A DNA stretch of 36,347 nt from NCBI GenBank assembly GCA_014238535.1, contig JABAAW010000005.1, forward strand, positions 22,692 to 59,038. Direction: 5' to 3'. Made by a program: the position numbers and the translations under genes. This DNA is from Alphaproteobacteria bacterium. Its GTDB lineage: Bacteria > Pseudomonadota > Alphaproteobacteria > JABAAW01. The notes under the pieces are model-generated. The model was not told the origin of the DNA and searched no databases. It worked only from the letters and a program-made list of their open reading frames with translations. The first letter of the stretch is position 1. Every line of letters begins with the position of its first letter. Below, piece after piece: positions 350 through 6,948 of this stretch.

Positions 350-3300
350 TTATGTGTATTGGTTAGCTGACATTTCTGCGAGTAATCGTACCAAACATCG
401 CGAAGCGCGCTTGCGACGTACGCTACTCTTTCCAAGAGGTATTCGCCACAGTAGATTTTGCTCTTTACCCAACTTCAACCGCTTGCCTGCGTGTCGTTGT
501 AACAACAAGATGAGCTTTTCCGGTGCCGCAAAACGCTTTTCGGCGAAACGCACGGTTATACCGCCTCCCCCCGCCTCGAGAGATTCGATATTCGCAAGAG
601 CCGCCCACTCTTTGATTTGAAAAATTTCAAGCAAATTATCAACCTCTTCAGGAATTTCTCCAAATCGGTCTTGCAATTCATCTCTAAAATCTTGCCGCGC
701 TACTTCGCTTTCAAGCATTGACAATCGACGGTACAGAGCCATACGCAAACCTTCTTCTCTCACATAGCGTGGCGGTATTAACACAGGTATTCCTAAAGAG
801 ATTCGTACTTCTTTAGCAATTGGAGTTACGGATTGACCATCCTCATCGACATCACTATGGGCAACAGCTTCTTTAGTAGCTACATTGCTAGGCTCAATAC
901 CGGACTTATCTTTATCTTTGTTCCTATTGTTTTTTTTCTTCTCTGCAATAGCGTTGCTCAACAATTTACGATACAGTTCAACACCTATTTCGCGTATTTT
1001 CCCTGACTGCTCCTCGCCAAGCAAATTTCCAGCACCTCGCATATCGAGGTCTTGCATCGATACGCGCAACCCCGCACCTGCACTATCTAACGTCTCCATT
1101 AGTTGTAGGCGTTGCATCGCGTGTTTTTGTTTGCGCGCATACTCTGGTATGAAAAAATAGCAATACCCCCGTAGTTTTGCACGCCCAACACGCCCTCGGA
1201 GCTGATATAGCTGTGCCAAACCAAAGCGATACGAATCGAGAATGACCATCGTGTTGGCGCGAGGAATATCTAACCCTGCCTCTACTATATTGGTAGAAAG
1301 CAATAGGTCATACTCACCTTGTATGAACGAACGTACACGTTGCTCTAATATTGTTGGTGGCAAACGTCCGTGTGCGACGACAATTTTTGCATCGGGTGCT
1401 ATTTTTTTTAGCAATACTTGAGTTCGTGCTAAATCGGTAATCCGCGGCACAACACAAAAAGCCTGCCCTCCGCGCAAATGTTCGCGCCGTAAGGCTTCTC
1501 CCAGTGAAACAGCATCGAAATCTAGGACGAAGCTGCGCACGAGTAATCGGTCATGCGGTGGTGAAAGTATTGTCGAAATATCACGCAATCCTGCAAGAGC
1601 CATGTTCAATGACCGCGGTATTGGCGTTGCGCTTAATGATAGTAGATGCGCATCGCTTTTTTTCCACCGTTCTTTCTGCTCGACTCCGAAAGATTGCTCC
1701 TCGTCTATTATTTGCAACGCTAGATTCGGTAAGACGATATTTTTAGCAAGTGCTGCATGCGTTCCGATCAAAATCTGTATCTCACCGCGTTCGGCGCGCT
1801 TGCGAGTTTCAGCGCGTTCTTTCGCTGTGCGTAGACGCGATAGCACTCCGATATTGATTGTAGAGGACATTGGCACATGAGCGAATCGATCTTTAAATAA
1901 ACGCGCGTGTTGCTCTGCTAGCAGTGTTGTTGGAGCGAGCATCAAGACTTGTGCGCCTTCGGCGACGACGATGAATGCAGCCCGCAAAGCTACTTCGGTT
2001 TTACCAAAACCAGCATCACCACAGATAATTCGGTCCATAATTCTTCCAGACTTCAGGTCATCGACGACGTCTTGTATCGCAGTAGACTGGTCATCCGTTT
2101 CGGCGTATGGGAATCCCATTTGGAATTTTTGCCATTCATCTTGCCGCACTTGGAATATAGGTGCGGACTGCATGTGTCTAGCTGCCATTGTCGCGACTAG
2201 TTTATCTGCGAGTTCTTTGATTCTGTGTTTGGCGCGTGCTTTGCGTATCGCAAAACCACTACCTCCTAGTCGGTCTAGAGTTGGCTGCTTTTCCCCTCCA
2301 ACACCGAATCGAGAGAGACTTTCCAAACCTTCGACTGGCAAGTATAAAACTTCGTCCTCGGCATAGATAATTTTGACGCAATCGTGCGGAGCTCCACCTA
2401 TCATTACACAAAGCAAACCATCGAAACGCCCGATACCATGCTCGCTATGTACAACAATTTCACCTACCACCAACGTACGTGCTTCGGTTAGCAGAGCCTC
2501 CAGAGAGCATTTACGCCTCCGTACGCGAGCACCAAAGCGCTCGCCAAACAGCTCGAACTCGCTCACCACAGCTAGTTGTGGTGCATCAAATCCTCGGCGT
2601 AGGAATAGAGGGGCAGCTGCTGGTATCCCTTGTGGCAAATCTACCAATGACGAGTAACCACGAATCGTCTCGATAGGCACGGCATTTTCGCGTAACCGCT
2701 CGGCAAGGCGCACAAGTGCTGCTTGCGTACGGGCTGTAAATAGATGAGGCTTACGCTGTGTGCGTGCGCGTAAATCTTCGTACAACCTATCTTCACGCAA
2801 AGCGAGTGTAAAGTCAGGGCAAGTCCGTCCCCCGCAATCGATCGGCGATAAATGGTCTTCAGCGCAGGGATTGGCATCCGAGAGCGGTGCTAGCCCAGAC
2901 GCACGATGAAGATACGCGTAGGAAAAGGACGAAAGTTTACCTTCGTTCGACGCATCAGTAAAATTTTGCCACTCGTCTTGCGAGAGGTACAGCGCATCTG
3001 GCGGTAGCACAGCACGTAATCGAGCCTCATTACCATCGATGGCTTGTGGTAAGGTTTTTTTATTTTTGCGCGCTAGCTGTTCTTCCTCTTGTTGCAATAG
3101 CTTGCGAGCCTCGAAATGGTCTTCGATTGTCTCGCGCCGTAGCAAAGACGCCTCGCGCGTATCCTGCCCAAAGACAACTACACACTCACGAGGAAGGTAC
3201 TCTGCAAGCGTTGCCATTCGATCGAAAAACAATGGTAGCAGATGTTCGAATCCATTGATTCCGTTTTCGTGTTCTGCTTCCGCGAATAGCGGATCGCGTG

Positions 3301-4192
3301 ATGAAAAGGCTACTCCGAAACGTTGCAGATAACGCGCGCGAAATGCGCTCCAGCTATCATTTGACAACGGGGCTTCACTCGCAGGTAACAAGTGCACACT
3401 TTGCAGGGATTCAAAACTCCGCTGACTTATTACATCAAATGATTTTACAGAATCGATCATATCACCATCGCAGTCGATACGAATTGGTGATGGTTCGTTA
3501 GCCGGGAAGATATCGATAAGACTTCCACGCACAGCATAATCGCCAATGCGACGCACGACATCCTCGCGTTGATAACCGTTGCGCAAGGCAAAATCACCAA
3601 ACTCTCTCCTATCGAATTTACCTCCTTTAGCTATGGTTAGAGGCGGGTTGTTTTCTAGAAAGTTTTTTGGAACAACTCGCTGCAATAGAGCAGCCACGGT
3701 TGTTAGCATAAATGGTGGCGCCTCGTTATTATTTGCGTTATTTTTTTTATTGTTAAAAACATCAGCGATACGAGCGAGGAAATTCAACCTAGCAGCGACT
3801 TGCTCGCGCGAAGGTGACACGCGGTCATATGGCTGACAATCCCAAGACGGATAACATATACACTCAGAGTTAGCCGCGAAGAAAGTTAGGGCGTCTTCAA
3901 CCTCGCGCATCGCGCGCTCGTCAGCGGCAACAAACAACAATGGACGTTGAAAGCGCATCTGTAGTGCTACAAGCACTACAGCAGTCATACCAAGCGGAAC
4001 TCCGCATAGCGGCAATCGCACACCTTGCCCTAAATTATCAGGGAAACTGTTCTCCAAGTACCTTAACATGTCTGCATGCGAGACTTGCTTCGATGTCTGC
4101 GTTGATTTTTGTAGCTTTTGCTTTTGTCTCTCCGCGTTAGTGTTGTTCTTCACCTCAACGAACATAGAGATTTGTTCTGTATTTTTTACCAC
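350..4192 (-). CDS. mfd: Transcription-repair coupling factor Mfd
   Basis: Mfd is the cytoplasmic ATP-dependent translocase that removes RNA polymerase stalled at DNA lesions and recruits the UvrA excision machinery. At 1280 residues it is somewhat longer than the usual 1150-1170. In order it shows a UvrB-like N-terminal region (residues 40-330), the RNA-polymerase-interacting CarD-like domain (about 575-630), Walker A GDAGFGKT (725-732), DEEQ (830-833), SATPIPR, a motif V containing TNIVEAGLDIPRA, a motif VI containing QLRGRVGRA, and the C-terminal TRCF domain. Extra length comes from an Asn/Lys-rich insert near residues 147-158 and a Lys/Asp/Glu-rich linker before the C-terminal domain. The start used is GTG at 4192; an in-frame ATG at 4165 is an alternative and neither has a good ribosome site. 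It lies 42 bases after folC and is the last gene of that operon. Confidence 0.96.
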   Translation of the reverse strand: MVKNTEQISMFVEVKNNTNAERQKQKLQKSTQTSKQVSHADMLRYLENSFPDNLGQGVRLPLCGVPLGMTAVVLVALQMRFQRPLLFVAADERAMREVEDALTFFAANSECICYPSWDCQPYDRVSPSREQVAARLNFLARIADVFNNKKNNANNNEAPPFMLTTVAALLQRVVPKNFLENNPPLTIAKGGKFDRREFGDFALRNGYQREDVVRRIGDYAVRGSLIDIFPANEPSPIRIDCDGDMIDSVKSFDVISQRSFESLQSVHLLPASEAPLSNDSWSAFRARYLQRFGVAFSSRDPLFAEAEHENGINGFEHLLPLFFDRMATLAEYLPRECVVVFGQDTREASLLRRETIEDHFEARKLLQQEEEQLARKNKKTLPQAIDGNEARLRAVLPPDALYLSQDEWQNFTDASNEGKLSSFSYAYLHRASGLAPLSDANPCAEDHLSPIDCGGRTCPDFTLALREDRLYEDLRARTQRKPHLFTARTQAALVRLAERLRENAVPIETIRGYSSLVDLPQGIPAAAPLFLRRGFDAPQLAVVSEFELFGERFGARVRRRKCSLEALLTEARTLVVGEIVVHSEHGIGRFDGLLCVMIGGAPHDCVKIIYAEDEVLYLPVEGLESLSRFGVGGEKQPTLDRLGGSGFAIRKARAKHRIKELADKLVATMAARHMQSAPIFQVRQDEWQKFQMGFPYAETDDQSTAIQDVVDDLKSGRIMDRIICGDAGFGKTEVALRAAFIVVAEGAQVLMLAPTTLLAEQHARLFKDRFAHVPMSSTINIGVLSRLRTAKERAETRKRAERGEIQILIGTHAALAKNIVLPNLALQIIDEEQSFGVEQKERWKKSDAHLLSLSATPIPRSLNMALAGLRDISTILSPPHDRLLVRSFVLDFDAVSLGEALRREHLRGGQAFCVVPRITDLARTQVLLKKIAPDAKIVVAHGRLPPTILEQRVRSFIQGEYDLLLSTNIVEAGLDIPRANTMVILDSYRFGLAQLYQLRGRVGRAKLRGYCYFFIPEYARKQKHAMQRLQLMETLDSAGAGLRVSMQDLDMRGAGNLLGEEQSGKIREIGVELYRKLLSNAIAEKKKNNRNKDKDKSGIEPSNVATKEAVAHSDVDEDGQSVTPIAKEVRISLGIPVLIPPRYVREEGLRMALYRRLSMLESEVARQDFRDELQDRFGEIPEEVDNLLEIFQIKEWAALANIESLEAGGGGITVRFAEKRFAAPEKLILLLQRHAGKRLKLGKEQNLLWRIPLGKSSVRRKRASRCLVRLLAEMSANQYT

Positions 4193-4234: not shown

Positions 4235-5920
4235 TTACTTTTTTGCATTCCGCATAAAGGTTTCTAGTTCTTGCATTAGATTGGCTTCCTCTTCGTTCAG
4301 TGGCTTTTCACTACCACGAAGTAGCGCGAGTAATTCTGGTTCTGTACGCTCGAGCAAACGCTCCAGTTGATTTAATAGCACGGTGTTCAAGTGTTTGTTG
4401 GCAGCTAGCTTTTTAACCCACTCACCAAAAGTTATGTCTAACTCGCGCATGCCGCGATGGCAAGCACGATAAACGAGACGCTTTTGCCGTTCCTGCAAAG
4501 AGATACCAGCACTAGCGCAACTGAGCGATAGGATTTCTCCAGCCAAATACAAAGAACCTATGATCAACAGACGCCGAGGCAAGTCTTTATCTTCCATCAA
4601 AATAGTACAAGCCTGCGTCAAACTACTTATGGGTTGCAATTCAAGATTCGCCTTACTCGCCTGTTCCGCCAACGCGTGCGCTGCAAAGAAGTCATTTTCT
4701 TCTCCGCTACCGCCGTATGCGAATCCACGCGCGATGCTGTTTGCGAAGGGTAAGGTGAAGGCGCAAGCATCCTTACCTTTCAACATAGCTATTATCAAGC
4801 AATATTTCTGCCCGCACCAATGTTCGTGTAATGCTTTAGCAACCGCGCGAGCTGCATGCGGGTTGTGTGCGCCATCTAGGCGCACCTCCCAATTTTTATC
4901 TAACGGCACTAGTGTAGATGATATCACCGTTGGAGATAGTAGTTCTAAACGCGCGGGCTGCGAGAAAGAAGATATACCAGTGCTCAACCCTTCGAGCAAA
5001 CGTCCGCGCGAACAGTTTATCCGCTCTTCCGCATGCAGTGCGAGCAAGGTGACTGCTGCGAGAGTGGCATTAACTGCTTGATGCTCTCCTAGTGCGCTAG
5101 GGGCGGGAAAGTTAATTTCTTCTTCCGCCTCTTTTACTTCCTCTTCTTTTTGCGTTGCCTTTGTTATTGCACCTTTAGGGGCCTGTAGTTTACCGCGCAG
5201 GGATATGGATAGCGATTCGGCACCGATATGCCTATTAGGTTTTCTAATAAAATCTTGCCCCTCAAGGTATAGTGGTATACCAAGTTCTCGTGCGTGAGTT
5301 GTGATAACTTCTATACACTCTTGCTGCGCTGATACGAGAACTGCGCCCCGTTTGGAGATCGCCACTTTTTCGTTAGTTATCGTTGCAAGGTCATTACCTA
5401 GGAACTGCGCGTGATCATAATCGATCGGCGTTAGCACTGCAGCACAAGTTGTTTCGACAAGATTAGTAGCGTCCAACCTACCGCCTAAACCGGTTTCTAA
5501 TATTAAGAAATCGGTTTTATGCTCGGCGAAGGCTAAGAATGCGGCAGCAGTTGTTATCTCAAAAAAAGTAATTTCGTTTTGCGAGTTAGCCGTACTCGCT
5601 CGTTGTAGATATTCTGCCAATCGCTCTGATTCTATTGGTTTTCCGTTAAATCTAATCCGCTCGTTGAAGGAGCATAAGTGTGGGGAGAGGTATGCTTGCG
5701 TCGAGAAGCCAGCAGCAAGCAAGCTAGCCTCGATACAAGCCAAGGTTGACCCTTTGCCATTCGTTCCTGCGATATGAATTGTCGGAGCTAATTTTTTTTG
5801 CGGAGCACCAAGCACGCGTAACAAACGCTCACAGCGATGTAGCGATAGGTCTATTTTTCGCGGATGTAACGCACCTAATTGCGCTAAGATATCCGAGTTG
5901 CTGGCTGGCTTTTTATTCAG
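4235..5920 (-). CDS. folC: Folylpolyglutamate/dihydrofolate synthase fused to SdhE-like flavinylation factor
   Basis: The first ~470 residues are FolC, the ATP ligase that makes dihydrofolate and adds glutamates to folates. The P-loop GTNGKGST is at about residues 53-60. The last ~89 residues (4235-4504) are a complete SdhE-like domain (DUF339) with the RGxxE motif in YRACHRGMRELD. SdhE assists covalent FAD attachment to succinate dehydrogenase. No stop separates the two parts. The first ATG/GTG/TTG in frame is a TTG at 5824, but conserved FolC N-terminal sequence (LHPRKIDLSL) lies upstream of it. The best start is CTG at 5918-5920, overlapping the accD stop as CTGA, which gives 561 residues. 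A Lys/Glu-rich insert precedes the second FolC domain. Both activities are family inference; the fusion is read directly from the frame. Confidence 0.9.
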   Translation of the reverse strand: MNKKPASNSDILAQLGALHPRKIDLSLHRCERLLRVLGAPQKKLAPTIHIAGTNGKGSTLACIEASLLAAGFSTQAYLSPHLCSFNERIRFNGKPIESERLAEYLQRASTANSQNEITFFEITTAAAFLAFAEHKTDFLILETGLGGRLDATNLVETTCAAVLTPIDYDHAQFLGNDLATITNEKVAISKRGAVLVSAQQECIEVITTHARELGIPLYLEGQDFIRKPNRHIGAESLSISLRGKLQAPKGAITKATQKEEEVKEAEEEINFPAPSALGEHQAVNATLAAVTLLALHAEERINCSRGRLLEGLSTGISSFSQPARLELLSPTVISSTLVPLDKNWEVRLDGAHNPHAARAVAKALHEHWCGQKYCLIIAMLKGKDACAFTLPFANSIARGFAYGGSGEENDFFAAHALAEQASKANLELQPISSLTQACTILMEDKDLPRRLLIIGSLYLAGEILSLSCASAGISLQERQKRLVYRACHRGMRELDITFGEWVKKLAANKHLNTVLLNQLERLLERTEPELLALLRGSEKPLNEEEANLMQELETFMRNAKK

Positions 5921-6948
5921 TCCGCTGCAGCCTTGATATCGTTTTCGCCGAGAGGCGTTGGGAAGTTCTGCAGATTATCCTGTACTCTAATTCTATCCCC
6001 TGCCTGCATATTAGCAACTGTAGCAGAGCTCTTTCCATCGCTGAGGTGTTGTAAAACTTTTGCGATAGTTCCACGTAACATACGTCTTTCGACAACGATG
6101 TCTACGGTGCCTTTTTCGCGTAATCTTTCGGCACGCTGAAAACCTTCGGGTAGTTTTTCACGCACTGTTTGCTCTATCACACGAGGACCTGCAAAGCCTA
6201 TACGCGATCCCTGCTCGGCTATTTGTATATCACCCAACATTCCGAAACTTGCGGTCACCCCTCCCATAGTCGGGTCTGTTAATACCACGATATATGGTTG
6301 CCGAGTTGCGCGAAAGCGTTGTAGTGCTACGATGGTACGCGGTAACTGCATCAACGAGAAAGGGCCTTCTTGCATGCGTGCGCCGCCACTTGCGGTTAAG
6401 CAAATCAGAGGTAGATTTTTTTCACTAGCCCTCGCTATTCCTGCGAGAAACCCGCTTCCGACAGCGATTCCCATGGAGCCTCCCATGAAATCAAAGTTCA
6501 AGCCGATGAATACAATTCGTTTACCATGTATCCGCCCTTCGGCGACTATTACAGCATCGTCCTCGCCGGTACGAGCTCGTTGCTCTTTCAGACGGTCTGT
6601 GTAGCGTTTAGAATCACGAAATCGTAGCGGGTCTTCAGGTGGAGCGTCGTATGCTATACGCTCTATACGCCCATCGTCAAAAAGGTTTTTTAAGCGTGCG
6701 CTAAGCGGCATACGCAAATGATATCCGCAATGCGGACATACGAAGGCCCAATTTCCTAAATCGCGGCTATATAGGGTTTCGGCACATCCATCACATTTAC
6801 TCCATAGTGTACGAGCTCGCGCAGATTCCTCTTCCAAACTCTCACCAACGATCGCCTTGATACGCGGGCGCACGATATCCTTTAACCACGACATGAGAAC
6901 AGAACTTTTTTCCATTTTTTTGGCAAATTCGCCAACTATTCGCGCCAA
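5917..6948 (-). CDS. accD: Acetyl-CoA carboxylase carboxyltransferase subunit beta
   Basis: AccD is the beta subunit of the carboxyltransferase that transfers CO2 from biotin to acetyl-CoA, the first step of fatty-acid synthesis; its partner alpha subunit is encoded at 11131-12087. The N-terminal zinc ribbon has C52, C55, C71 and C74. The crotonase-like core contains FDFMGGSMG and TASGGARMQEG, typical of AccD. Length is 343 residues. The start is TTG at 6948, chosen because a GAGGTG ribosome site lies 6 bases upstream; this adds 18 residues before the usual MSWLKD-type start (ATG at 6894). The stop TGA overlaps the apparent folC start. Confidence 0.96.
   Translation of the reverse strand: MARIVGEFAKKMEKSSVLMSWLKDIVRPRIKAIVGESLEEESARARTLWSKCDGCAETLYSRDLGNWAFVCPHCGYHLRMPLSARLKNLFDDGRIERIAYDAPPEDPLRFRDSKRYTDRLKEQRARTGEDDAVIVAEGRIHGKRIVFIGLNFDFMGGSMGIAVGSGFLAGIARASEKNLPLICLTASGGARMQEGPFSLMQLPRTIVALQRFRATRQPYIVVLTDPTMGGVTASFGMLGDIQIAEQGSRIGFAGPRVIEQTVREKLPEGFQRAERLREKGTVDIVVERRMLRGTIAKVLQHLSDGKSSATVANMQAGDRIRVQDNLQNFPTPLGENDIKAAAD

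Follow-up and report, generated by a model that had tools for sequence, protein, structure and literature searches.

A single uninterrupted reading frame on the reverse strand of the window (the whole 36,347-nucleotide stretch of DNA that was analysed) runs from position 5920 to 4235 and encodes, in 561 sense codons closed by a TAA at 4235-4237, a complete FolC followed by a complete SdhE domain. No stop separates the two, so the protein departs from the stand-alone small-protein architecture typical of SdhE: known members of the SdhE/YgfY/Sdh5/SDHAF2 family are normally free-standing and about 90 residues long, whereas here SdhE is the C-terminal domain of FolC. We consider it probable that the arrangement arose by a lineage-specific loss of the folC/sdhE boundary at a variable junction, giving one two-domain chain in which FolC and the tethered SdhE would both work and the fusion would be near neutral. 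It has the look of a chance event among closely packed genes, not of a new pathway.

The fused frame had been proposed in a first-pass annotation of this DNA, and profile searches bear it out. Pfam analysis of the 561-residue protein, which that annotation had suggested, placed Mur_ligase_M at residues 50-218, Mur_ligase_C at 342-443 and Sdh5 at 480-555, all above curated cut-offs; both domains are highly significant, and a chance match is excluded. AlphaFold2 modelling of the whole chain (mean pLDDT 87.9) ends the FolC fold in a helix at residues 457-469, followed by about five linker residues and by five helices beginning at residue 475, with the junction itself weakly predicted (pLDDT 69-75). 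The coordinates of these features, their flanking genes and the corresponding junctions of four relatives are collected in Table 1.

Table 1. Features of the fused gene and its neighbours in the window, with the folC-sdhE junctions of four related genomes.
Feature	Position	Strand	Remarks
accD, next gene upstream	5917..6948	-	TIGR00515, 327 bits
Candidate start (CTG) of the fused gene	5918..5920	-	Overlaps the accD TGA stop (CTGA); homologues align from about here
FolC part, residues 1-469	4514..5920	-	Complete dihydrofolate/folylpolyglutamate synthase; TIGR01499, Mur_ligase_M, Mur_ligase_C; PDB relatives 1o5z, 1w78; helix 457-469 closes the domain
P-loop GTNGKGS, residues 52-58	5747..5767	-	Invariant in a 7-sequence FolC alignment
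Out-of-frame TAG where FolC normally stops	4512..4514	-	+44 nt relative to GSLY; may be a remnant of a lost folC stop, or a coincidence
Junction/linker, about 5 residues (470-474)	4499..4513	-	AlphaFold2 secondary structure and pLDDT dip; relatives have folC stop and sdhE start here
TTG (L475)	4496..4498	-	No other standard internal start lies at the domain boundary
SdhE (Sdh5/DUF339) domain, residues 475-561, five helices	4238..4498	-	Pfam Sdh5; fold matches 1x6i, 6c12, 6b58, 6vax, 8dyd, 2lm4
RGxxE motif, RGMRE, residues 489-493	4442..4456	-	G and E invariant across 35 SdhE sequences
mfd, next gene downstream	350..4192	-	TIGR00580, 831 bits
Junction in G001			folC stop TGA; sdhE in other frame
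Junction in G002			folC and sdhE in same frame, one TGA between
Junction in G004			folC stop TAG; sdhE in other frame
Junction in G005			folC stop overlaps sdhE start, 4-nt ATGA

The N-terminal part has what is expected of a working FolC. The NCBIfam model TIGR01499 scored 310.3 bits on the fused protein against a cut-off of 162.65 and was covered over positions 1-399 of 400, and the columns invariant among relatives are kept together with the P-loop. With the enzymes of Escherichia coli (1w78) and Thermotoga maritima (1o5z) it shares the full-length domain, the P-loop, the conserved residues and the fold; it differs in carrying an 87-residue SdhE domain after the normal C-terminus and in its likely CTG start. 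This half thus looks functional, with dihydrofolate and folylpolyglutamate synthase activity predicted. Given that the first in-frame ATG, GTG or TTG is a TTG at 5824, already within the FolC core, translation of the fused gene most likely begins at the CTG. The folC genes of G001 and G004 are likewise without a nearby ATG and may start at TTG.

The tail was recognized by Pfam Sdh5 (PF03937) with 46.8 bits in the full protein and 51.1 bits on its own, against a cut-off of 27. Its motif reads CHRGMRELD, exactly as first annotated, and all columns invariant in 35 SdhE sequences (G18, E21, D23 and G27, in the RGxxE region) are retained; the RGxxE motif of SdhE contacts the FAD-attachment histidine (PMC5773532). 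When the tail was modelled alone, its ten best PDB matches were all SdhE, Sdh5 or SDHAF2, including E. coli YgfY/SdhE, the SDHA-SDHE and FrdA-SdhE complexes, yeast Sdh5 and human SDHAF2 (TM-score by query 0.62-0.79, probability 0.97-1.00), with E-values that are weak (0.02-0.47) for a short chain; no high-probability match in the PDB lay outside the SdhE family. The SdhE equivalog PRK10878 (NF008130 in NCBIfam) scored 21.4 bits, below its cut-off of 120, and we assign the tail to the Sdh5 family only, without claiming the equivalog name. Compared with known members (PF03937; 1x6i, 6c12, 6b58, 6vax), it shares the five-helix fold, the RGxxE motif and the presence of a single copy, and it looks functional, with flavinylation of SdhA predicted. 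SdhE of this genus (the window and three further loci) is divergent: it has two extra residues following the second helix, and a D-P-D-L-Y-x-W stretch in which the usually conserved Y-x-W, with its tryptophan, is lost.

We compared the locus with the same region of related genomes, which was found in three of the four congeners examined and in one further genome of the same taxonomic order (G001, G002, G004 and G005 together). All four carry the accD-folC-sdhE-mfd block with folC and sdhE adjacent and separate, so the search for the same architecture in relatives came back empty. Gene order is shared with the window, including mfd downstream of sdhE, the neighbour that the first-pass annotation had named; the difference is that each relative has a stop codon and an sdhE start of its own between the genes, and the window protein has neither. 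The GSLY motif of FolC and the SdhE motif are 99 nt apart in the window, compared with 169 in G001, 138 in G002, 148 in G004 and 98 in G005. G001 has two tandem repeats (4799-4849 and 5143-5198 of its locus, L032): one of 15-nt units within the end of folC, at the folC/sdhE boundary, which lengthens the FolC tail, and one of 14-nt units immediately behind sdhE. G004 has a short direct repeat at the boundary. On these comparisons, the folC-sdhE junction changes readily among relatives. Since four relatives keep the genes separate, we infer that separation is ancestral and the fusion derived.

We were interested in how widely the fusion occurs. The class was sampled, not exhausted, in 172 genomes, in which all 141 sdhE matches were listed with their frame lengths, and the best-scoring sdhE matches were listed from a larger sample of 385; no further FolC-SdhE fusion was found among the matches listed from either. 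Long frames over sdhE in six genomes were rejected as fusions, being open frames antisense to a divergent recG, none of them FolC. Beyond the taxonomic order of the window, the genomes where both positions could be compared have folC at a long distance from sdhE or on another contig, and two of them, which we followed individually, gave that result. A search for related loci with the fused protein returned only distant FolC, and a plasmid search gave only ordinary FolC among the matches listed. The first-pass statement that no such fusion has been described agrees with the literature searched, in which we found no published FolC-SdhE fusion; a Complex II structure paper calls an SdhE fusion 'not anticipated', in reference to fusion with SdhA/FrdA itself and not with another protein (PMC5773532). 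Among the genomes examined, one assembly of one species shows the fusion.

That assembly is a metagenome-assembled genome (MAG) of 1.39 Mb in 91 contigs, 81.6% complete. It yielded one Sdh5 and one FolC match, both in the fused gene, and no second copy of either, including the stand-alone sdhE that would have spoken against the first-pass reading. Unless the roughly 18% of the genome that is missing holds further copies, both functions thus depend on the fused gene. Congeners with an SdhE match have one each as well. The client is also at hand: as in genomes with known SdhE proteins, SdhA is present in the MAG, carrying RSHTVAAQGG with the covalent-FAD histidine, and sdhC-, sdhD- and sdhB-like frames, read by eye from translations, adjoin sdhA.

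Could the genes be separate after all? One base missing at the end of folC, through an error of assembly or base calling, would join two genes that are truly apart, as they are in the relatives. The out-of-frame TAG fits such an error, in that one extra base upstream of it would end FolC 15 residues after GSLY, where most relatives have 14-21, and the fusion is absent from every other genome examined. However, some 10 codons will often contain a TAG by chance, the junction holds no long homopolymer (the longest run is 3), and the remaining genes of the window seem to have their full length, which speaks against frequent frame errors here. An unfused sdhE would moreover be left with a TTG start alone and no visible ribosome site. 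We regard an error as quite unlikely. The same TTG raises another scenario, in which ribosomes also begin at 4498 and release a free SdhE, about 87 residues long, to carry out flavinylation. The codon falls exactly at the domain boundary, its product, MQERQKRLVYRACHRGMRELD, would be near normal SdhE length, and Shine-Dalgarno signals are weak at so many starts in the window that a missing one says little. Yet the absence of a visible ribosome site, already observed in the first-pass annotation, is matched by an anti-Shine-Dalgarno energy of -2.8 against a median of -2.2 for random TTG codons, which is at background; TTG codons are commonplace within genes; and with no stop at the site there would be no coupling of termination to reinitiation. 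Internal initiation is unlikely on this evidence.

A different proposal is that the fusion is adaptive, linking folate or one-carbon metabolism to succinate dehydrogenase maturation, for example by fixing their stoichiometry. FolC and SdhE are physically fused and their gene order is conserved in the taxonomic order, but congeners with that order manage unfused and no fusion occurs in the other alphaproteobacteria examined, which leaves the proposal scarcely credible. We know of no pathway link between FolC and SdhE, and we saw no sign of a functional tie between their activities. A true bifunctional FolC-SdhE, with SdhE at work while permanently tethered, so that the level or location of FolC would govern succinate dehydrogenase maturation, is likewise very improbable. 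The fusion had been called unexpected, which is supported in part: two complete proteins share one frame, but nothing suggests that joining them serves a purpose, the relatives keeping them separate.

The fusion is probably explained by two adjacent genes losing the boundary that kept them apart, given that the same neighbours are separate in the congeners and the genome of the same order. Ancestrally, sdhE would have stood directly behind folC in the accD-folC-sdhE-mfd block, the gene order observed in the taxonomic order, and in one genome the junction, short and variable, would have lost both the folC stop and the sdhE start. From the frame observed, ribosomes would make one chain of about 61 kDa comprising FolC, a linker of about five residues and SdhE. 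The usual synthesis and glutamylation of folates would fall to FolC, and SdhE, though tethered, would remain able to bind apo-SdhA and, by way of RGxxE, to promote its covalent flavinylation; the two activities would share a chain only because their genes were neighbours, and the fusion is probably close to neutral. N-terminally His-tagged human SDHAF2 has been used for in vitro flavinylation (PMC9557727), so a small N-terminal addition is compatible with use of the SdhE family. Three points count against boundary loss with both halves at work: the N-terminal partner here, at 50 kDa, is far larger than any tag, the modelled junction is of low confidence, and a single MAG assembly shows the fusion.

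The fusion opens no new pathway. It provides a natural experiment on whether SdhE can function behind an N-terminal partner of 50 kDa, and a clear example of two adjacent genes becoming one, three congeners still having them apart. It also warns against inferring functional linkage from a fusion in one MAG.

Two further features of the surroundings were observed. Little or no Shine-Dalgarno signal precedes many genes of the window (350-35904), among them trpA and the dsbB-like and carA-like genes, which suggests that initiation without it may be common in the host organism. At six other alphaproteobacterial loci, sdhE has a divergent recG on one side and mfd on the other; in the taxonomic order of the window, recG is elsewhere and folC stands upstream of sdhE instead.
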